Part shown: piece by piece, positions 6,389-40,202 of the stretch
Layout: every line of letters begins with the position of its first letter
How positions within the stretch are numbered: the stretch's first letter is position 1
Program-made: the position numbers and the translations under genes
The notes under the pieces: generated by a model
What the model was told of the DNA's origin: nothing
Seen by the model: only the letters and a program-made list of their open reading frames with translations
The model's database searches: none
Source of the DNA: Mariniflexile sp. AS56
GTDB taxonomy: Bacteria > Bacteroidota > Bacteroidia > Flavobacteriales > Flavobacteriaceae
Length of the DNA: 64,000 nucleotides
NCBI RefSeq assembly: GCF_030552475.1
Contig: NZ_JAUPED010000003.1
Coordinates: 186,001-250,000 of the forward strand
Reading direction: 5' to 3'

Positions 6389-9300
6389 ATGAATAAAATT
6401 TATTCTTTAATTCATCTTTTTCGAGCTTGTAAAAGCAATCGAATGAAGATTATTAAATCAATAGTAGTATGTTCTTTATTTATTTCAAAAGGCTACGCCC
6501 ATTCAAACACTTCCTTAAGTCCTAATGTTTCATTAAATGAAACTGAAAAAGGACAACTAATTAAAGATGTGCAATCTCAAATAACAGGGAATGTGATAGA
6601 CCAAACAGGTATGCCACTGCCTGGGGTTAATATTATTGTAAAAGGGACTAGTACAGGAATGTTAACCGATTTTGATGGGCAGTTTACCATTAAGGCAGTA
6701 AAAGGGAATGTTTTAGAGTTCTCTTATTTAGGTTACAAAACCCAAAGTGTAACGGTAGGCTCTGGTACCGTAATTAACGTAACTATGCAAGAAGACATAG
6801 AGAGTCTTGGCGAAGTTGTTGTTGTAGGTTATGGTCAACAAACTAAAGTAAGTTTAGTGGGGTCAATCACGCAGGTGAAACCAGCAGAATTAAAAATCCC
6901 GTCAAGCAATTTAACAACAGCTTTAGCGGGTCGTGTAGCGGGAGTTATTGCATTTCAAAACTCAGGAGAACCAGGACAAAATAACGCCGATTTCTTTATT
7001 CGTGGTGCCACAACATTCGGTATTCGTCAAAGTCCATTAATTTTAATTGATGGTGTTGAGTTGACAACGAATGATTTAGCACGTTTAAATACCGATGATA
7101 TTGAGAGTTTTTCAGTGTTTAAAGATGCAACAGCAACAGCTATATATGGTGCTAGGGGTGCTAATGGTGTGATAGCTGTAACAACTAAAACGGGTGAAAT
7201 AGGAAAAGTTCAAGTGAGTGTGAGATATGAATCAGCCTATTCGCAAGCCACTAAAAACATAGAATTGGCCGATCCAATAACATATTTGCAATTACATGGC
7301 GAAGCGGTAAGAACAAGGTTTGACCCTACAGCAACACCTCCTTATGCGCTAAATAAAATAGATAAAACTTTAGCAGGTAATGGAAATCCTTATGTATATC
7401 CTGTTACAGATTGGCAAGATGAATTATTAGAAGACTTTACAAACACGCAACGATTAAACTTTAATGTTGCAGGTGGTGGTAAAGTTGCAAGATATTTTGT
7501 TGCCGCGGGGATGTCTAAAGATAATGGAATTCTTAAAGTTGATAAACAAAGTAATTTTAATAGTAATATAGATTTAAAGCAATATTATGTGCGTTCTAAC
7601 ATAAATATTGATTTAACAGAAACTACCGAAGCTATAATTAGATTTAATGCTACGGTTGATGATTATACAGGACCGATACCTAGTGGTAGCCAAGTTTATA
7701 ACATGATTAACCGTACCAATCCTGTTAGGTTTCCTGCTTATTACGCACCTGATGCTGCAAATGAATTTACTGAGCATCTTTTGTTTGGAAATCAAGACGA
7801 TGGTAGTGGTTCTGCAAATTACCTTAACCCGTATGCAGAGCTAGTTCGTGGGTATCGTGATTATAGTAGGTCACTTAACGTGATTCAAATAGAATTAAAA
7901 CAAGATTTAAAAGGTATTCTACCCGGACTAAGCTGGAGAGGTTTAGCAAATATGAATCGTACATCTTCATATGGGTTAAATAGAGCTTATGATCCATACT
8001 ACTACGGTATGGGCTTGTATAATCCTGTAGATGATAGTTATACATTAACACCTTTAAACGAAGGGACTGAGACTTTAAATTTTAATGAGTCTAATGCAGA
8101 TAGAAGTGTAAACTCTGTAATGTATTTAGAATCTGCTATTAACTATGCTCAGACATTTAAGGAAAAACATGCTGTGTCTGGTTTATTAGTAGGTATCATG
8201 AGAGAAGCTGTAGATGGTAATGCTTCGGAATTACAATTATCTTTACCAAGTAGAAATATAGGAGTGTCAGGTCGTTTCACATATGGTTACGATAAACGAT
8301 ATTTCACAGAATTTAACTTTGGTTATAACGGTTCAGAACGTTTTGCTAAAAGCAATAGATTTGGGTTTTTCCCATCTGTAGGTGCTGGATGGGTTATTTC
8401 GAATGAAGATTTTTGGAACTTTGATTTCATAAACAGGTTTAAATTAAGAGGTTCTTATGGTATTGTTGGTAATGATGCCATTGGTAGTTCAAGTGATAGA
8501 TTCTTCTATTTATCGAATGTTAATTTGAGAGATGGCGGTAAAAGTGTTCGATTTGGAACAGATGGCGGTTTTTACAGTGAGGGTGTTTCGATAAGTCGTT
8601 ATGCAAATCCTGATGTTACTTGGGAGAAATCTTATAAACAGAATTATGGGTTCGAAATGAATTTATTTAAAGATGCTATTCAATTTCAAGCAGAACTTTT
8701 TAAAGAAAACAGAACAGATATTTTACAATCTCGTGCTTACATACCTTCGTTGTTAGGGTTACAATCTGATATTAAAGCGAATATTGGAGAAGCTAAATCA
8801 CATGGTTTTGAACTTACGCTAGATGTTAATCACCAATTCAATAAAGATCTTTGGGTACAATTCACAGGAAACTATGTAGATACTAAAAGTAAATTTGTTA
8901 ATTATGAAGAGCCAGATTATTTAGCTTCAGGAGTGCCATGGAGATCGCGTGAGGGGCAAACTATAAATCAAGGATATGGCTTGATTGCTGAAAGACTTTT
9001 TGTTGATGAGGCTGATGTAGCAAATTCGCCACTTCAAGGTTTTGGAGAGGTTATGGCCGGAGATATAAAGTATAAGGATGTTAATGGAGATGGACAAGTA
9101 ACAGAATTAGATATTGTTCCAATAGGAGAGTCTATGCAACCTGAAATTAGTTATGGGTTTGGTTTTTCTGTTGGTTATAAAGGGTTTGATGTATCTGCCT
9201 TCTTTCAAGGCTTAGATCGCTTTTCTTTCTATATAGATTCAAACAAATTAACCCCATTTGCTGATACAGATACAAGTGGTGATTATTTATCAGGAAAAAC

Positions 9301-9655
9301 AGCAGAGAATCAAATTTTACAAGCATTTGCTGATGATCATTGGTCTGAGGATAATCAAAATAGCTATGCTTTATGGCCACGTTTATCAACTACAGCAATC
9401 TCAAATAATAACCAAACAAGTACTTGGTGGATGCGAGATGGTGCCTTTATGAGACTAAAATCATTAGAAATTGGTTATAATTTTGAGCCTAAAAAAGGAG
9501 GTCCTTTCGGTATGGCTACTGTAAGAATGTATCTTAGTGGTAATAACTTAGTGCATTGGAGTCAATTTAAACTTTGGGATCCGGAGTTAAGAGGTAACGG
9601 ATTAAATTATCCTTTACAAAGGGTAGTGAATATAGGTCTTAAAGTTAATTTGTAA
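6389..9655 (+). CDS. SusC/RagA-family TonB-dependent outer-membrane transporter
   Basis: The product is an outer-membrane importer of oligosaccharides with 1088 residues, the usual size for SusC. In order it has a signal sequence, a carboxypeptidase-D-like regulatory domain (QITGNVIDQTGMPLPGVNI..., ~65-145), the SusC linker GEVVVVGYG, a plug with SVFKDATATAIYGARGANG near 250, and a beta-barrel ending in NIGLKVNL. A second possible start, Met19 at 6443, gives a shorter signal peptide; I kept 6389 because A-rich sequence lies just upstream and long N-terminal extensions are common in SusC proteins. It heads an operon with SusD and two lipoproteins. Confidence 0.97.
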   Translation: MNKIYSLIHLFRACKSNRMKIIKSIVVCSLFISKGYAHSNTSLSPNVSLNETEKGQLIKDVQSQITGNVIDQTGMPLPGVNIIVKGTSTGMLTDFDGQFTIKAVKGNVLEFSYLGYKTQSVTVGSGTVINVTMQEDIESLGEVVVVGYGQQTKVSLVGSITQVKPAELKIPSSNLTTALAGRVAGVIAFQNSGEPGQNNADFFIRGATTFGIRQSPLILIDGVELTTNDLARLNTDDIESFSVFKDATATAIYGARGANGVIAVTTKTGEIGKVQVSVRYESAYSQATKNIELADPITYLQLHGEAVRTRFDPTATPPYALNKIDKTLAGNGNPYVYPVTDWQDELLEDFTNTQRLNFNVAGGGKVARYFVAAGMSKDNGILKVDKQSNFNSNIDLKQYYVRSNINIDLTETTEAIIRFNATVDDYTGPIPSGSQVYNMINRTNPVRFPAYYAPDAANEFTEHLLFGNQDDGSGSANYLNPYAELVRGYRDYSRSLNVIQIELKQDLKGILPGLSWRGLANMNRTSSYGLNRAYDPYYYGMGLYNPVDDSYTLTPLNEGTETLNFNESNADRSVNSVMYLESAINYAQTFKEKHAVSGLLVGIMREAVDGNASELQLSLPSRNIGVSGRFTYGYDKRYFTEFNFGYNGSERFAKSNRFGFFPSVGAGWVISNEDFWNFDFINRFKLRGSYGIVGNDAIGSSSDRFFYLSNVNLRDGGKSVRFGTDGGFYSEGVSISRYANPDVTWEKSYKQNYGFEMNLFKDAIQFQAELFKENRTDILQSRAYIPSLLGLQSDIKANIGEAKSHGFELTLDVNHQFNKDLWVQFTGNYVDTKSKFVNYEEPDYLASGVPWRSREGQTINQGYGLIAERLFVDEADVANSPLQGFGEVMAGDIKYKDVNGDGQVTELDIVPIGESMQPEISYGFGFSVGYKGFDVSAFFQGLDRFSFYIDSNKLTPFADTDTSGDYLSGKTAENQILQAFADDHWSEDNQNSYALWPRLSTTAISNNNQTSTWWMRDGAFMRLKSLEIGYNFEPKKGGPFGMATVRMYLSGNNLVHWSQFKLWDPELRGNGLNYPLQRVVNIGLKVNL

Positions 9656-9665
9656 TATTAAAACT

Positions 9666-11567
9666 ATGAAAACAAAAAAAATAAAGTACTTTATATCTTC
9701 CATAATAATGGCATGCTTCTTTTCGTGCGATTCTTATATAGATGTGGTACCAGATAATATAGCAACTATAGATATTGCTTTTAATAATAGAGATAATGCA
9801 GAGCGCTTTTTCTATACTTTATATCATTACATGCCCAGTCATGGAAACGTTAACGCAAACCCAGGGCTTATTGGAGGTGATGAGGTATGGATAAACCCAA
9901 TATCCGGTAACGGCCTAGGTGCCTTTAAAATGACTCAAGGCTTTCAAAATGTTGTGAGTCCAGAACTTAATTGGTGGAGCGGCTATAGCAACGACATGTT
10001 TGTTGGATTGAGAGATTGTAACATTTTTCTAGAAAATATTGATAGACCTAGAGATTTAATCGAAGAGGAAAAAACAAGATGGATAGCCGAAACAAAGTTT
10101 TTAAAAGCTTATTATCATTTTTGGTTACTTCGCATGTACGGTCCAATTCCTATTATAGATCAAAATACGCCGGTTGGTGCAAGTGTAGAGGAAGTGCGTT
10201 TAGAACGTGATAAAGTTGATGATGTTGTAAATTATATTGTATCTTTATTAGATGAGGCCATGGTAGATTTACCACCATTTATAGCAGTTCCTGCTTTAGA
10301 GTTAGGAAGAGCAACACAACCAATCGCAGCATCAATAAAAGCACAGGTTTTGGCCTTTGCAGCAAGTCCATTACTAAACGGGAATCCTGCTTATTCTAAT
10401 TGGGTTAACAATGCTGGAGAACCATATGTAAATCAAACGTTTGATATTACAAAATGGGAAAAAGCAGCTGAAGCAAGTGCCGAAGCAATCATGTTATCAG
10501 AAGAAAACGGACATAGCTTGTATAAATCTAATGGGTCTGCTCAATTTACATTGTCGGATTCTACAATTACAAAATTAAGTATAAGAGAAGCCGTTTCAAA
10601 AAGATGGAATCCCGAGATTATTTGGGGAAACCAAAATTCAAATGCATCTGGTTTACAAAGTATGTCTTTCGTAAAAGCAGATCCAAGCCTAACACCTGAG
10701 GAATTAGGGCAGGCAGCAACGAATTGGTCTCCAACATTAACTATGGCAGAATTATTTTATTCTGATAATGGAGTTCCTATTGAAGAAGATTTAGCTTATG
10801 ATTATGCAGGAAGGTATGGTGTGAAAACAGCAGGAAGCGATCATAGGTATTACATTGAAGAAGGATATCAAACAGCATCTTTACATTTTAATAGAGAACC
10901 TAGATTTCATGCCTCTTTAGGTTTTGACGGAAGTAAAATATATGGAATGGGACAGGTGAATGATAAAAGTATATTCACTATTAAATCTAAAAACGGACAA
11001 CCAGCATCGGGATCTAATGATAGAAATTATAGTGTAACAGGATATTATGCTAAAAAATTAATAAATTTAGAAGATATAATATCTGGTGGATCTTGGAGAG
11101 TTAATGCATACCCATTTCCTGTTATCAGATTGTCTGATATGTATTTGCTATATGCAGAATGCTCAAATGAAGCATATGGGCCATCTGCCGAGGTTTATGA
11201 TAATATAGATATTGTACGAGAAAGAGCCGGTTTAGATGGTGTTGTAGCTTCTTGGGCAGCACACTCTAATAATCCATCAAAACCTAACTCAAAGGAAGGA
11301 TTAAGAGAAATTATTCATCAGGAGCGCTTAATAGAATTATCATTTGAAGGGCACCGATTCTGGGATTTAAGAAGATGGTTGAAGGCGCAAACTTATTTAG
11401 ATGGTACAGAAATGAAGGGGTGGTCTATAAAAGCATCGACAGTAGTAGATTATTATAAGGTAACACTTGTAGGGAAAACTGCTTTTAGTCAAAAAAACTA
11501 TTTCTGGCCTATTAAAGAGAGTGATTTATTAGTTAACCCTAATTTAGATCAAGCTCCAGGTTGGTAA
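9666..11567 (+). CDS. SusD/RagB-family surface glycan-binding lipoprotein
   Basis: The product is a 633-residue lipoprotein with lipobox FFSC (Cys21). SusD hallmarks are the N-terminal helical part (AETKFLKAYYHFWLLRMYGPIPI), AASIKAQVLAFAASPLLNG, and the C-terminal stretches PFPVIRLSDMYLLYAEC and IHQERLIELSFEGHRFWDLR. SusD caps the SusC barrel at the cell surface and captures the oligosaccharide. It starts 10 bp after susC, as is usual for the pair. Confidence 0.97.
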   Translation: MKTKKIKYFISSIIMACFFSCDSYIDVVPDNIATIDIAFNNRDNAERFFYTLYHYMPSHGNVNANPGLIGGDEVWINPISGNGLGAFKMTQGFQNVVSPELNWWSGYSNDMFVGLRDCNIFLENIDRPRDLIEEEKTRWIAETKFLKAYYHFWLLRMYGPIPIIDQNTPVGASVEEVRLERDKVDDVVNYIVSLLDEAMVDLPPFIAVPALELGRATQPIAASIKAQVLAFAASPLLNGNPAYSNWVNNAGEPYVNQTFDITKWEKAAEASAEAIMLSEENGHSLYKSNGSAQFTLSDSTITKLSIREAVSKRWNPEIIWGNQNSNASGLQSMSFVKADPSLTPEELGQAATNWSPTLTMAELFYSDNGVPIEEDLAYDYAGRYGVKTAGSDHRYYIEEGYQTASLHFNREPRFHASLGFDGSKIYGMGQVNDKSIFTIKSKNGQPASGSNDRNYSVTGYYAKKLINLEDIISGGSWRVNAYPFPVIRLSDMYLLYAECSNEAYGPSAEVYDNIDIVRERAGLDGVVASWAAHSNNPSKPNSKEGLREIIHQERLIELSFEGHRFWDLRRWLKAQTYLDGTEMKGWSIKASTVVDYYKVTLVGKTAFSQKNYFWPIKESDLLVNPNLDQAPGW

Positions 11568-16271: not shown

Positions 16272-18815
16272 ATGAAAAAAAATTACATTATTAATCAGAC
16301 GAAGCTACTAATGGTCGTAGCATTATTTTTTGTGCAATTTGTACAATCTCAGGTTACCATTAATTCATTGGCCGAGTTAAAAACGTATATAGTTCAAGAT
16401 AACATAAATGCAGTCATGACGCCTGGAACCTATTACATTGATTCGACGGTAACAGGTACAGGTAGTTTATTCCCAGATCCTGTTCTTTTCGAGTTTACGG
16501 GTTCTAACAGTACATACGATTTTACAGGAGTTACGTTTGAAATTAATACCCAGGTTTTGTCTGATTTTGGCAATGTAGATGTCAACGAGATGCAAATCTT
16601 AGGAAATGACCTTGTTCTAAAGAACTTAACCATTGAAGATATTGGGATGGCAGCTCCCACAAAACGTGCACAAAGCATTGTTATGGATGGGAGAGATAAT
16701 AGAATAGAGGGCTTTCATTTAACCATTAGAGGTTCTTATCCGTATGGTTATGGAGATGCTTTTGGTAAAGGAGGAGGTTCTGTTATTGCTCATAAAAAGC
16801 ATTCCGGAATTTTAATACGAGGTCTTCGTAATCATCTTAAAGACTGTAATATAATTTCGCGTTCTTATGGGCATATCGTTTTTATGCAAGCTGCAAGTTA
16901 CCCTACTGTAGAAGGCTGTTATATAGAAGGTGAAATGCGTACAACTGATGATATGTTAAGTGAAACATCAGGTCCTGCATTCGATGTCGGTTTTATGACG
17001 GTTTGGGGTTACACGCTTCCAGCTGGTTATATGATGAGTTTACAAGAAGCCGGAATTAGAGCCTATAACGCGGGTACAACTTATATTGATGGTGTTGAAA
17101 TACAACGAGCAACCGATAATCCAACCGTTTTAAATTGTACTATTAAAAATGCCAGAACAGGTGTAACTTTAGCGCATGCTAATGGAACAAAATATGTTGA
17201 AGGCTGTACCGTTTTAGGTAGCGAAAATGGATATTCAATTGGAGATGGTATTGTTGTGAATTGTGGAGCCGATGCTATTTATGGGCCAGTTTACAAAAAT
17301 GCATACGCCAGCGATACGGGTTATAATGCCGATATAACAATTTTGCCTCCTAGTGCGCCGTATTACAATGGGCATAAAGCGGTGGCTTATGTTGGTGGTA
17401 AAGAACATAACTTAACATTTCGTTCTAATGAAGTAAGTTTTCCGAGTGACTTAAAAATAATGATGGCTGGAGATTTGCAGGGTTTAAGAGTTTTAAATGG
17501 GAGTAATGCATCACAAAACAACCATACAGTTAACGATGTTTTCTTAAAGAATATGACTAATTTCCCCGTTGTTTTACATGCTGATGCGACCAATAATGTT
17601 GTTCAAGAATGCGACACTTCTGATGTGATAAATAATGGAACAGGTAATACCATCTCTTCTATAAATTGTAATTCATTAAATCTAGCCTTAACTGGTGGAG
17701 CTGTTCAATCTACTACAGATTATGGAGGGTTAGCGAATAGAGCTATTGATGGAAACACTAATGGGAATTTCGGGTCGGGTTCTGTTACACATACCAATCC
17801 GGCTGATACCGATGCTTGGTGGCAAGTAAGTTTAGCTACAGAAGCAGCCATTGGTGATATTATAATTTATAACAGAACAGGACAGCAAAGTTATATCGAC
17901 CGACTTTCAGATTTTGCAGTGTATGTTTACGATACCAATGGTACGGAAACCTTCTCGCAAACCTTTGCCAACGATCCTCCAAACCCTTCAAAAATTATAG
18001 ATGCAGGAGGAGCTATGGGGAAAATAATTAAAATAGTTCAATTAGATAATACCGTGGCGCTTTCTATAGCTGAAGTAGAGGTTTATGAATATGTAGCTCC
18101 AACAATAGTGACGCTTACAATTCAAGAAAACGAAACCGGATTTTGTGGTGTTGAAGGTACAGTAGATAGTAATCATTCGGGGTATACAGGAACAGGATTT
18201 TCCAATACAACAAACAACTTGGCATCAGGTATCGATTGGACTATAGACGGAGATGCTGGAGATTACACCTTTCTTTGGCGTTATGCAAGTTCTTCAAATA
18301 GACCGGCAGATTTAATTGTTAATGGAGTTACTGTTTTAAGCGGTATAACATTCAACGCTACAGGAGGCTGGAGTTCATGGCTTACACAGTCGGTAACCGT
18401 AAACTTAGGGGCTGGTGTTAAAAATATTAGATTGGAAGGTGCTGGTAATTCAGGATTGGGAAATATAGACTATTTAGAAGTAACAGGCCCTAATGCAGCG
18501 GTGGCAACTTGCCCTTCGTCAGCGAAGTTGGTGAGTTCAAAAACATTATCAACTAATACTATTGAAAAATTAAAATTCGATGTATACCCGAACCCAGTGG
18601 TAAACGAGTTTACGGTTTCATTAAAGAATTCTAATTTAAATTTAGATAAATCTATAATTAGAATATATGCGATTAATGGACAAAAGGTTAAGGAGTTTAA
18701 AGTGTTAAATGCTTCGGAAATAAAATTAAATGTCTCTCAATTAAATAGTGGATTTTATCTTCTAAAAATTAGTGATGATGTAAATAGTGTGTCTAAAAAG
18801 TTAATTAAACTATAG
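16272..18815 (+). CDS. Multidomain beta-helix protein 1: beta-helix, F-type-lectin-like module, CBM6/35-like module, T9SS signal
   Basis: The 847-residue product has a signal peptide (1-26, VQSQ) and a right-handed beta-helix to ~465 bearing the local family signature: GSYPYGYGD (from 154), YGHIVFMQ (His201), EGEMRTTDD (Arg223), ETSGPAFD and QEAGIRAY. Residues ~470-610 resemble an F-type lectin (CBM47) domain: RAIDGNTNGNF, THTNP, WWQVSL and IIIYNRTG. Residues ~612-745 look like a CBM6/CBM35 sandwich. The last ~75 residues are a type A T9SS sorting domain (DVYPNPVVNEF ... KKLIKL). It is therefore secreted or surface-attached and probably cleaves or binds a fucose-containing glycan. The catalytic activity is unproven. 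Confidence 0.8.
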   Translation: MKKNYIINQTKLLMVVALFFVQFVQSQVTINSLAELKTYIVQDNINAVMTPGTYYIDSTVTGTGSLFPDPVLFEFTGSNSTYDFTGVTFEINTQVLSDFGNVDVNEMQILGNDLVLKNLTIEDIGMAAPTKRAQSIVMDGRDNRIEGFHLTIRGSYPYGYGDAFGKGGGSVIAHKKHSGILIRGLRNHLKDCNIISRSYGHIVFMQAASYPTVEGCYIEGEMRTTDDMLSETSGPAFDVGFMTVWGYTLPAGYMMSLQEAGIRAYNAGTTYIDGVEIQRATDNPTVLNCTIKNARTGVTLAHANGTKYVEGCTVLGSENGYSIGDGIVVNCGADAIYGPVYKNAYASDTGYNADITILPPSAPYYNGHKAVAYVGGKEHNLTFRSNEVSFPSDLKIMMAGDLQGLRVLNGSNASQNNHTVNDVFLKNMTNFPVVLHADATNNVVQECDTSDVINNGTGNTISSINCNSLNLALTGGAVQSTTDYGGLANRAIDGNTNGNFGSGSVTHTNPADTDAWWQVSLATEAAIGDIIIYNRTGQQSYIDRLSDFAVYVYDTNGTETFSQTFANDPPNPSKIIDAGGAMGKIIKIVQLDNTVALSIAEVEVYEYVAPTIVTLTIQENETGFCGVEGTVDSNHSGYTGTGFSNTTNNLASGIDWTIDGDAGDYTFLWRYASSSNRPADLIVNGVTVLSGITFNATGGWSSWLTQSVTVNLGAGVKNIRLEGAGNSGLGNIDYLEVTGPNAAVATCPSSAKLVSSKTLSTNTIEKLKFDVYPNPVVNEFTVSLKNSNLNLDKSIIRIYAINGQKVKEFKVLNASEIKLNVSQLNSGFYLLKISDDVNSVSKKLIKL

Positions 18816-19009: not shown

Positions 19010-21094
19010 ATGAAAAAAAACGACATTATAAAGCAAACAAAATGGCTAATTATAGCCTTGTTTTGTGTGCAATTTGTACAATCTCAAGTAACCATTAGTT
19101 CTATTGCAGAATTAAATAACTTGCTAGCTCAAGATAATGTTAACGCAGTTATGACTCCGGGAACTTATAACATTGGGCCAGCAGACGTAACATCGGGTTT
19201 ACTTCCAAACCCTACATTATTTGAATTCTCAGGATCTAATTGTACTTACGATTTTACAGGTGTAACCTTTGAATTCGATACGAATATTTTCCGATCTTTT
19301 GGTAACGTAGAAGTTATAGAAATGCGCGTTGCGGGCGCTAATAATGTGATCAAAAACCTAAAAATGGAAGACATTGGTAGTGTGACACCTTATAGAACTG
19401 CCTTAGGAATTCAGTTTGATGGCTTAGACAATAGAATAGAGGGTATTCACATGACGGTAAGAGGTTCATACCCTTATGGCTATGGCGATATTTTTGGTAA
19501 AGGTTCAGGGTATGTTATTAAACATTTTAAGCATTCTGCTATTTTAGTTCGCGGAGAACGAAATCATATTAAAAATTGTACCATTATTCATAGAGCTTAT
19601 GGTCATGGTATTTTCTGCCAAGGTTCTATAGATGCTTTAATTGAAGGAACGTATTTAGAAGGTGAAGTACGTAGCACCGATGATGTTTTGGCAGAAGCAG
19701 GAAGCGGTTCCGCTGCCGATGAAAAAGATTTTATGACCGTTTGGGGGCATCGTCTTCAACCAGGTTGGATGTTTAGTTTACAAGAAGATGGTATTAGAGC
19801 CTATAATAATGGCTCCCACCATATTACAGGAGAATCAATAAGTACAAGAAACATGCGTGTTATTGATTGTACAATTAATAAAATGAGATCTGGTATCACA
19901 ATTGGTTTTTGTGATAATGAAAAATACGTTGAAAATTGTGAAGCAATAGGAACAGAAGGTGCCTTTTGGGTAGGTAATGGTGGCGAAATTGTGAACTCTA
20001 GAGGTGATGGCGCTTACGGACCTTTATACGCCTCTGCTTATCAAACGGATAACACAAGTAAGGTTGATATAACCGTTATTGATAGTGAATATGATGTTTA
20101 TGGTACCCATCCTCTTTTGTTTTTAGGTGGAAGCGGACATAATATTTCTTTAAAAAGTACGGAAACAACTAAAAAAGAGGCTTACAAAATATTTGTTGCG
20201 GGTGTTCGTGAAGGAATGCGTTATAGTGACACGGTTGATGCTACCTATTTCGATCAATCTGCAAGTAATGTTACCTTAAGCAATGCGAGTGGATATCCTA
20301 TAGTGCTTGAAGAACGTTGTACAAATGCTACTATTCATACTTGTGGAACGGTAACCGATAATGGAACTGATAATTCGGTAACTTTATTTGCCGACTGTGC
20401 AGATGTGGATCCTAATAATTTATGCCCTAAAACAGCGGCCTTAATGGAAGGCGAATGCTATGATAGTATGCTTGGAGTGCAATCTGAAACCTGTGCAGAA
20501 GGTGGTTTAAATATTGGTTATTTAGATGAAAATGATTGGGTAAAGTTTAGTGCTATTGATTTATCAGGAATGGCATCAGTAAAAGCAAGAACCTCAAGTA
20601 AGTATTCCGGAGGGTTTATTGAAGTGCGTTTAGATGCTACAGATGGGGCATTAATTGGCAACATACCCGTTAATAACACTAGCGGATGGCAGAATTGGGT
20701 AACTAGTGCAGTAGGAATTCAAAGTTTTACAGGGAATATTCATGATGTGTATTTTGTTTTTAAAGGCACAAGAGCAGGTTCTATGTTTAATGTCAATTGG
20801 TTCAGTTTTTCAGCGGAATCTTTATCGGCCTCTTCTTTTGAATTAAATAACCAAATAAGCATGTATCCAAATCCAGTTTCAGATATACTGACACTTTCTT
20901 TAGCAAATGCAGATTTGAATATTAAACAAACCAAGATCACTTTGTTCAATATTAGTGGTCAAAAAGTGATGGAAATAGCTCCAAAAAGCTTGTCTGAAGT
21001 TCGTATTGATGTTTCAGAATTAAATAGCGGTATGTACTTTTTAAAGGTAGGAGACGTATCAAAAACCGGTACTAAAAAAATAATCAAACTATAA
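19010..21094 (+). CDS. Multidomain beta-helix protein 2: beta-helix, CBM6-like module, T9SS signal
   Basis: The 694-residue product has a signal peptide ending VQSQ near residue 26. The beta-helix carries the family blocks GSYPYGYGD (from 152), YGHGIFCQ (His199), EGEVRSTDD, an altered EAGSG in place of ETSG, and QEDGIRAY. Residues ~471-603 are a CBM6-like sandwich (ALMEGECYDSMLGVQSE ... GYLDENDWVKF). The C-terminal ~75 residues are a T9SS sorting domain (MYPNPVSDIL ... KKIIKL). The CBM and tail closely match those of the protein at 45329. It leads an operon with a Kelch protein, a lyase and a GH-A-like enzyme. Activity is unknown. Confidence 0.8.
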   Translation: MKKNDIIKQTKWLIIALFCVQFVQSQVTISSIAELNNLLAQDNVNAVMTPGTYNIGPADVTSGLLPNPTLFEFSGSNCTYDFTGVTFEFDTNIFRSFGNVEVIEMRVAGANNVIKNLKMEDIGSVTPYRTALGIQFDGLDNRIEGIHMTVRGSYPYGYGDIFGKGSGYVIKHFKHSAILVRGERNHIKNCTIIHRAYGHGIFCQGSIDALIEGTYLEGEVRSTDDVLAEAGSGSAADEKDFMTVWGHRLQPGWMFSLQEDGIRAYNNGSHHITGESISTRNMRVIDCTINKMRSGITIGFCDNEKYVENCEAIGTEGAFWVGNGGEIVNSRGDGAYGPLYASAYQTDNTSKVDITVIDSEYDVYGTHPLLFLGGSGHNISLKSTETTKKEAYKIFVAGVREGMRYSDTVDATYFDQSASNVTLSNASGYPIVLEERCTNATIHTCGTVTDNGTDNSVTLFADCADVDPNNLCPKTAALMEGECYDSMLGVQSETCAEGGLNIGYLDENDWVKFSAIDLSGMASVKARTSSKYSGGFIEVRLDATDGALIGNIPVNNTSGWQNWVTSAVGIQSFTGNIHDVYFVFKGTRAGSMFNVNWFSFSAESLSASSFELNNQISMYPNPVSDILTLSLANADLNIKQTKITLFNISGQKVMEIAPKSLSEVRIDVSELNSGMYFLKVGDVSKTGTKKIIKL

Positions 21095-38795: not shown

Positions 38796-40202
38796 ATGAA
38801 AAAACAAACACTTATTGTGCTTTCTGTTTTGGTATTGATTTTTTCATGCCGAGCGCAATCAACAGACAGTCAGAAAACAATTATAGAGGTAAATACACTC
38901 ACTGAATTCAGAAATTATTTGAATCAGGATAACGTACATGTTAAGCTCCAAGAGGGGAATTATCAAATAGATTCTGCCGAAAAAATCAGGTTTATGGAAA
39001 TCACTGGCAATAATTCTTATTATGATTTAAGAGGTGCGCGATTTATGGTAGATACAAAACTGTTTAGTCTTCCAGATTTAATTAAAAGTGATGACGGAAA
39101 TGGTATGTATTGTGCTATAGAAATATCTGGAAATCATGTAACTCTAGAGGGGCTATATATTGAAACCTATGGAGATACACCGGGCAGACAAAGTAAAAAC
39201 AAAATTTTTAATATCGTAGGAGAAGATGTGACTTTGAAGGATGTTGAGATACGTACAACGGGTTCAAGTCCGTGGGGTTATGGGTATTTATACGGATTAG
39301 GAGGTAATGATGTGAGGAAGATGAATGGCATTCGTGTAGGATATCCGGCAAAAAACGTAAAATTACTTGGTTGTAAAGTCCATATGAGAGCCATGGGACA
39401 TGCTATCTTTTTACAAGGTTCAGAAAACACGTTAATTGAAGACTGTCATGTAGATGGTTTGCTTCGCACTACCGATGCGATGCTTGCAGAAACTTCAGGC
39501 TATGGTTTCGATAAAAATTTTTATGCAGGTAAAGGGAATTATATAGAAGGCACCATAGTTGCTGCAGATGGTAAAATTTTGCCGGGAGAAGTTATATCTC
39601 TAAGCGAGGATGGCATACGCATGTACCCAGATTACAATGGCCACGAAACTAAAAACACAATCGTAAAAAGTTGTACGGTAACCCAAATGCGTAGAGGTAT
39701 ATGTACAGGGTTGGCCACTTCAGGGGACAAGGTTATTGACTGTGTAGTCCGCGATTGTGTAACAACAGGCTACAACGTAGGAAATGAAGATGTTTTAATT
39801 AATTGTAGTGCCGATGCTAAATATGGTGAGGCTTTTTGTATTCCTTACACCAACGCCAAAAATGCGCAGGTAGAAATGACTATTTTAGATAGTAGAAATG
39901 GCATAGCTAATAATCTGCTTGCGAAAATAAATGGTACAGGTCACAAAGTGATTATTAAAACAGAGTCTTCGGAATTTATTCCAGAAAGCATGGCTATTAA
40001 ATTATCTGTATGGGAAGGTTATGGTAATTTTAATGAAAATGCAACCTTGCATGCTACAAATATCACATTAGACAACCAAACCTCGACACAAGTGATAAAG
40101 TTTAAAGGTAGTGAGAATTTAAAAGTAAAGAGCGTTGGAAAAGTACGTGAAGCTACCAGTTCAGAAAATGTAGTCAATGAAAGTAATCGTACCAAGCGTT
40201 AA
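38796..40202 (+). CDS. Beta-helix protein 3 (local family), lipoprotein
   Basis: The product has 468 residues with lipobox IFSC (Cys18), so it is anchored rather than sorted by T9SS. It is the most divergent member of the window's beta-helix family: GSSPWGYGYLYGLG, MGHAIFLQ (His202), VDGLLRTTDAMLAETSG and SEDGIRMY are kept, but the KKHSG block is replaced by KMNGIRVG. It starts 92 bp after GH31 with no operator copy, so it is probably read from the same operon. It may cleave or bind the same glycan backbone as its paralogs in the periplasm or on the membrane. Confidence 0.75.
   Translation: MKKQTLIVLSVLVLIFSCRAQSTDSQKTIIEVNTLTEFRNYLNQDNVHVKLQEGNYQIDSAEKIRFMEITGNNSYYDLRGARFMVDTKLFSLPDLIKSDDGNGMYCAIEISGNHVTLEGLYIETYGDTPGRQSKNKIFNIVGEDVTLKDVEIRTTGSSPWGYGYLYGLGGNDVRKMNGIRVGYPAKNVKLLGCKVHMRAMGHAIFLQGSENTLIEDCHVDGLLRTTDAMLAETSGYGFDKNFYAGKGNYIEGTIVAADGKILPGEVISLSEDGIRMYPDYNGHETKNTIVKSCTVTQMRRGICTGLATSGDKVIDCVVRDCVTTGYNVGNEDVLINCSADAKYGEAFCIPYTNAKNAQVEMTILDSRNGIANNLLAKINGTGHKVIIKTESSEFIPESMAIKLSVWEGYGNFNENATLHATNITLDNQTSTQVIKFKGSENLKVKSVGKVREATSSENVVNESNRTKR

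Follow-up and report, generated by a model that had tools for sequence, protein, structure and literature searches.

The window analysed here, that is the whole stretch of 64,000 nucleotides, carries a SusC/SusD pair, two genes for alpha-L-fucosidases of family GH29, one GH95 gene, four sulfatases, a GH31 gene, a heparinase-like gene and others, and this content fits a fucoidan-utilisation locus. The open reading frame at 16272-18815 (+) encodes a protein of 847 residues, in which Pfam recognises a beta-helix, domains of the F5/8C and CBM_6 types and a type 9 secretion system (T9SS) tail. The relevant genes and domains are:

6389..11567 (+): upstream SusC-like (6389-9655) and SusD-like (9666-11567) genes
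16272..18815 (+): secreted protein of 847 residues, with a signal peptide (by eye), FdlA-type lyase, F-type lectin and CBM35/6-like domains and a T9SS tail
16353..17675 (+): fucoidan-lyase catalytic beta-helix of the FdlA family, residues 28-468, from the 7xzf match and the essential residues
17676..18095 (+): F-type lectin domain (FTLD/CBM47), residues 469-608, from sequence, profile and model fold searches
18111..18512 (+): CBM35/CBM6-like domain, residues ~614-747, from CBM_6 (E 2.2e-8) and PDB matches
18582..18806 (+): T9SS type A sorting tail, residues 771-845, from Pfam
19010..21094 (+): paralogous FdlA-like lyase with CBM6 and a T9SS tail, in which no F-type lectin domain was found

The initial annotation had described the host as a beta-helix protein; the beta-helix was recovered, but its identity as a fucoidan lyase of the FdlA type had been overlooked. 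Residues 28-468 match FdlA of Flavobacterium sp. SA-0082 (AAO00510.1; PDB 7XZ7-7XZF) with E 1.6e-218 against 7xzf over residues 2-441 of the 441-residue query, and the two catalytic domains are nearly collinear over 440 residues. The catalytic beta-helix retains all seven residues whose mutation, according to the FdlA study, abolished activity (PMC9410043): D162, K166, H201, F204, E259, R263 and Y265 match D137, K141, H176, F179, E236, R240 and Y242, the FdlA numbering being assigned by motif spacing. The host protein is thus a predicted fucoidan lyase of the FdlA family. The same study states that FdlA acts on sulfated fucoglucuronomannan, that its products bear a fucosyl branch, which is 3-O-sulfated in the main and disulfated products and 2,4-di-O-sulfated in a third, and that residues 472-697 comprise an F5/8 type C domain and a sorting tail (PMC9410043); it is on this annotation by its authors that the two C-termini are likened. 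At 847 residues our protein is longer than FdlA (697 residues) because a CBM35/CBM6-like domain follows its lectin domain. Residues ~614-747 match 2vzp best (E 1.3e-22), followed by 2w46, 2w87 and 2w3j, all of which we take to be CBM35 domains that bind uronic acids.

Eight open reading frames of the window, starting at 16272, 19010, 38796, 40321, 42125, 45329, 49593 and 58094, encode beta-helices of the FdlA family (E 2e-21 or better), a notable local expansion of such lyases across 16272-59449. All seven essential residues occur in five of the eight; those at 38796, 45329 and 49593 lack counterparts of D137 and K141, and the latter two also have Tyr in place of F179. Another beta-helix protein, at 68-1762, has a PDZ domain at its C-terminus and matches GH141_M at a score under the curated cut-off.

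The initial annotation had placed an F-type-lectin-like domain at 17670-18110, which corresponds, in frame with the open reading frame, to residues 467-613. The motifs on which it relied, RAIDGNTNGNF, THTNP, WWQVSL and YNRTG, are all present, in frame and in the order given. The 147-residue stretch was compared by phmmer with 177,635 distinct PDB sequences, matches being kept to E 10. Only 14 sequences were retrieved: six distinct F-type lectins (2j22, 1.9e-28; 2j1r, 1.3e-26; 3cqo, 5.4e-23; 3le0, 3.5e-19; 4gwi, 1.7e-18; 1k12, 2.9e-5) and eight aldolase-type chains, all at E 1.3-1.4. A chance match of motifs is ruled out by these E-values.

The competing class assignment is a generic F5/8 type C domain, CBM32-like, with a galactose-type specificity or none. 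It draws on the Pfam labels of the domain, F5_F8_type_C_2 (NedA-like; E 1.5e-11) and F5_F8_type_C (E 2.3e-7), and on the FdlA authors' term for the corresponding region (PMC9410043). Yet both genuine F-type domains that were tested, 2j22 and domain 1 of 3cqo, receive identical labels in the same order, with PF22633 above PF00754, and the Pfam name is therefore no evidence for the generic class. With the single sequence no CBM32 domain was matched among the PDB sequences up to E 10. A profile built from seven homologous domains (our own and six from five FdlA loci) retrieved six F-type sequences with E-values between 3.9e-47 and 4.2e-17, with the top CBM32 match at 5.1e-4; by sequence the domain thus stands nearer to the F-type lectins than to the remaining domains of the F5/8C fold.

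An AlphaFold2 model of the lectin domain, computed from the seven-row alignment (pLDDT 90.9, pTM 0.87), has the F-type jellyroll, a statement about fold that applies to this model. In Foldseek its ranks 1-11 are F-type lectins (9.7e-17 to 2.6e-12), followed by a CBM32 at 1.7e-9; in VIA-align ranks 1-10 are F-type lectins (Z 24.0-19.9), and the first row after them is 8ayr_B (Z 17.9, rmsd 2.2, 137 residues). That CBM32 domains show the common fold at lower scores is accounted for by membership in one superfamily. The domain also has a complete basic triad, described below. We therefore rejected the generic class, which we regard as highly improbable, on the PDB sequence search, the Pfam control, the profile, Foldseek and VIA-align. 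Residues 469-608 are an F-type lectin domain (FTLD/CBM47); the initial annotation was right in this, and the identification is stronger than it had claimed.

Alignment with solved lectins, and motifs and ligand roles taken from the review of F-type lectins in PMC5712786, locate the following residues of the predicted fucose and calcium sites; AAA is the eel agglutinin:

17748..17756 (+): Asp493-Gly-Asn, cation motif (AIDGN); motif from PMC5712786
17769..17771 (+): Phe500, counterpart of the methyl-pocket Phe45; role from PMC5712786
17781..17783 (+): Ser504, counterpart of the cation ligand Ser49 at an equal offset from His; PMC5712786
17790..17792 (+): His507, counterpart of AAA His52; alignment with solved lectins
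17874..17876 (+): Arg535, counterpart of AAA Arg79; alignment with solved lectins
17880..17882 (+): Gly537, in place of the RxD Asp (Asp81); alignment
17901..17903 (+): Arg544, counterpart of AAA Arg86; alignment with solved lectins
18072..18074 (+): Glu601, counterpart of the cation ligand Glu147; PMC5712786

His507, Arg535 and Arg544 make up the full His-Arg-Arg fucose triad. The initial annotation had recognised the His and, 28 residues further on, the first Arg, but had missed the third basic residue. With AAA outside the alignment, the positions of Asp493, Phe500, Ser504 and Glu601 were assigned from their distance to the His and from the end motif, which is conserved; the h2DGx cation motif, here AIDGN, and the ligands Ser504 and Glu601 delineate a putative calcium site.

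The acidic residue of the RxD motif had been reported as absent, and the position is indeed Gly537, in a loop that is also longer. The domain reads HX27RXGX6R in place of HX24RXDX4(R/K), a pattern highly conserved in most members, with deviating ones listed in the review (PMC5712786); since deviating members exist, it is a signature and not a strict requirement. Elsewhere the gap between His and Arg is X26 in 2j22 (counted by hand) and 26 in AAA, from 52 to 79. According to the same review, the three residues of the triad bond to fucose at its axial 4-OH, ring O5 and 3-OH, the motif Asp forms a salt bridge to the preceding Arg, Asp81 of AAA touches the subterminal sugar, and AAA accepts 3-O-methyl sugars too (PMC5712786). 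Given these last two properties, fucose binding may survive the loss of the Asp, and a group at O3 is perhaps tolerated; the Asp, being salt-bridged to the first Arg, might matter for the primary fucose site as well.

Among solved relatives, the Streptococcus pneumoniae fucose-binding modules (2J22, 2J1R), determined with Lewis Y and H trisaccharide, are 42-43% identical to our domain in the fold alignment, have the same triad and likewise lack a vicinal Cys-Cys pair, but read RTDAxxxR, with a loop of 4 residues, where ours reads RTGQQSYIDR, with 6. These modules are presumably CBM47. AAA (1K12) and striped bass FBP32 (3CQO) share the F-type fold, the triad and the calcium-site residues with our domain, which has neither the Asp nor the Cys-Cys pair that AAA and domain 1 of FBP32 possess.

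To place the Gly among relatives, domains were collected from the eight copies of our own genome, 397 genomes of the family (38 with an FTLD match at E 1e-8, our own counted), nine named FdlA loci and four PDB domains. Five of the 104 different domain strings were dropped by containment, the aligned set has 103 rows, and at least five weaker matches lie outside it; the rows are related by descent, so that their counts are not independent. By residue class there are 39 rows of HRDR, 18 of HRGR, 8 of HRNR, 7 of HRGD and 15 with His changed to Ala, besides others, and one row, domain 2 of 3cqo, has an alignment gap at the RxD site. Gly occupies the Asp position in 27 of the 103 rows, 18 of which keep the full triad. 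The triad is full (Lys being allowed at the last place) in 70 rows. Of these, 40 have Asp, with loops of 4-5 residues and, in 26, two adjacent Cys; the 18 with Gly have loops of 3-6 residues and in no case such a pair. The pair occurs in 7 of 8 Asn rows, in one of 3 Glu rows and not in the sole Gln row.

On a tree computed without the binding loop and after removal of one fragment, with few columns and many open forks, the Gly label takes 7 changes, at least 4 of them forced by well-supported branches; hence the loop has been remodelled repeatedly, and Gly537 is a recurrent variant of the F-type lectin domain. Five FdlA-linked Gly domains group together (support 97), nested in a group of eight (support 95) whose other three rows have RTD and a Cys pair, including the FdlA-linked RTDNCCKAR domain of Flavicella. 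The loop is RTG[Q/K]QSYI[D/E]R in four orthologues of this Gly lineage and RTGSTSLR in the fifth. The His-to-Ala rows form a separate observation: 13 of the 15 come from two genomes (G207 and G229; L028, L031, L058, L061, L064 and L066), mostly as tandem F-type domains in which His52 is replaced by Ala and both Arg are kept, perhaps for a different ligand.

The triad is invariant in all seven rows of the seven-domain alignment, and it is present in 6 of the 6 fusions, our own protein counted, whose catalytic domains are at least 70% identical, even though their lectin domains are just 52-71% identical to ours. In a wider set of 15 distinct FdlA-family fusions, drawn from those retrieved as whole frames (and thus without, for example, those in G335 and G236), 11 keep the triad and four, with catalytic domains 47-50% identical, have lost the third Arg; such domains need therefore not all bind fucose. 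Relatives with catalytic domains 61-66% identical in three loci (L014, L016 and L018) lack an F-type lectin domain.

These data bear on the possibility that the domain has kept the F-type fold without sugar binding, as a spacer or a part of the export tail, Gly537 being a mark of decay. It would accommodate the missing RxD Asp, the four sister FdlA-like proteins of ~980-1130 residues in which the third Arg is gone as well, and the report that the FdlA N-terminal domain alone has enzymatic properties equal to those of the whole enzyme (PMC9410043), from which it follows that the module is dispensable for catalysis on dissolved substrate. We nevertheless consider decay unlikely: the triad persists in the six closest fusions despite the divergence of their lectin domains and in two thirds of the Gly rows, the Gly was gained or lost repeatedly, and the residue it replaces touches the subterminal sugar in AAA (PMC5712786).

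The association between lyase and lectin extends to whole genomes. Among the 397 family genomes, an FdlA-like domain (E 1e-60) occurs in 12, all 12 of which have an FTLD (hypergeometric 1e-13, or 1e-12 without our own genome, kinship ignored); shared ancestry inflates the 12/12 count, as does the frequent location of the domain inside the lyase itself. At most 9 FTLD and 4 FdlA candidates were scored per genome, so that copy numbers are lower bounds. Alginate_lyase2 (PF08787) was found in 102 genomes at E 0.001, 99 of them above the curated cut-off; these 102 include all 12 FdlA genomes and 23 with an FTLD, and of the 90 that lack FdlA, which serve as the control, 11 have an FTLD (hypergeometric 1e-9 within the 102, kinship again ignored). 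A brown-algal lifestyle as the only cause of the co-occurrence was rejected, as the FdlA association persists within this set, kinship ignored. The two genomes of the same genus in the sample have neither an FTLD (E 1e-8) nor FdlA (E 1e-60).

Our own genome has eight F-type lectin domains, spread over three contigs. Their fusion partners are GH29, Alginate_lyase-like and FdlA-like domains, but for three of the eight Pfam recognises no partner except CBM6 or a sorting tail. Such a spread over varied proteins might be taken to mean that the lectin binds fucose on other molecules, such as fucosylated surface glycans or other fucans of the alga, and works in adhesion instead of lyase targeting. 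Against this, the partners recognisable by Pfam or the FdlA profile are polysaccharide-degrading enzymes, and the fusion of lyase and lectin is stable among close FdlA orthologues; we judge the adhesive role improbable. Four copies besides the one at 17676-18095 lie ~5-26 kb after the window (L009 6068-17718 and L010 3114-6476): two are partnered by Alginate_lyase (PF05426) and CBM6, one by CBM6 with no recognised catalytic domain, and the fourth by an FdlA-like domain and several CBM6. A GH29 alpha-L-fucosidase (L012 8295-9776) has a C-terminal F-type-like domain without the His and the third Arg (WRDQ).

On the computed domain identity, triad, calcium-site residues, lyase fusion and conservation of that fusion we base the reading that we consider likely, namely that the FTLD is the fucose-binding module of a T9SS-exported FdlA-family lyase in a fucoidan-utilisation cluster, gripping fucose branches. 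Judged from the sequence, it would bind fucose, and a branch of the polymer itself would most likely be the ligand. The earlier suggestion of a substrate with terminal fucose agrees with the fused FdlA-type domain and with the two GH29 genes and one GH95 gene of the window. In the proposed mechanism, the lyase would be secreted by the T9SS and its catalytic domain would cut the mannose-glucuronate backbone of sulfated fucoglucuronomannan, while His507, Arg535 and Arg544 of the lectin domain would grip terminal alpha-L-fucose branches through the axial 4-OH, ring oxygen and 3-OH and so keep the enzyme on the branched polymer. The replacement of Asp by Gly would affect the primary fucose site less than it would the fourth binding loop and the contacts with the following sugar, and the CBM35-like domain might hold glucuronate ends.

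With regard to sulfation, we infer that a 3-O-sulfate would be tolerated and a 4-O-sulfate would not. A more specific version, which we offer tentatively as a possibility, is that the site has been re-tuned such that 3-O-sulfated terminal fucose fits and the 4-O-sulfated form does not, with the CBM35-like domain holding the unsaturated glucuronate end. The fourth loop of the FdlA lineage would then have been reshaped and would have lost the salt-bridging Asp and the vicinal Cys pair that the sister RTDNCCKAR domain of Flavicella has, and a single enzyme would read both types of end of its own product.

Already known were the FdlA accessory domain, under the broader name, and the binding of sulfated fucan by a CBM47: a review of fucoidanase carbohydrate-binding modules reports that WfCBM47, from a marine bacterium, binds sulfated fucan with a 1,3-alpha-fucose backbone (PMC11943901), and our domain is likened to it by description. 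In the titles and abstract beginnings of the open-licence papers listed we found no naming of the FdlA C-terminal domain as an F-type lectin. The present analysis sharpens that label: the C-terminal part of FdlA-type lyases, named 'F5/8 type C' before, is in the orthologues examined an F-type lectin domain whose triad is complete, and these lyases therefore carry a likely fucoidan-binding module. The RxG loop without a Cys pair, recurrent in the Flavobacteriaceae, could offer a natural series on how fucose lectins handle sulfate, and its variants might supply reagents for sulfated fucose.

Outside the Bacteroidota, the fusion of an FdlA-like lyase with an F-type lectin domain occurs twice, side by side, in Puniceicoccaceae bacterium K14 of the Verrucomicrobiota (L022), which suggests either transfer of the fusion or repeated fusion.
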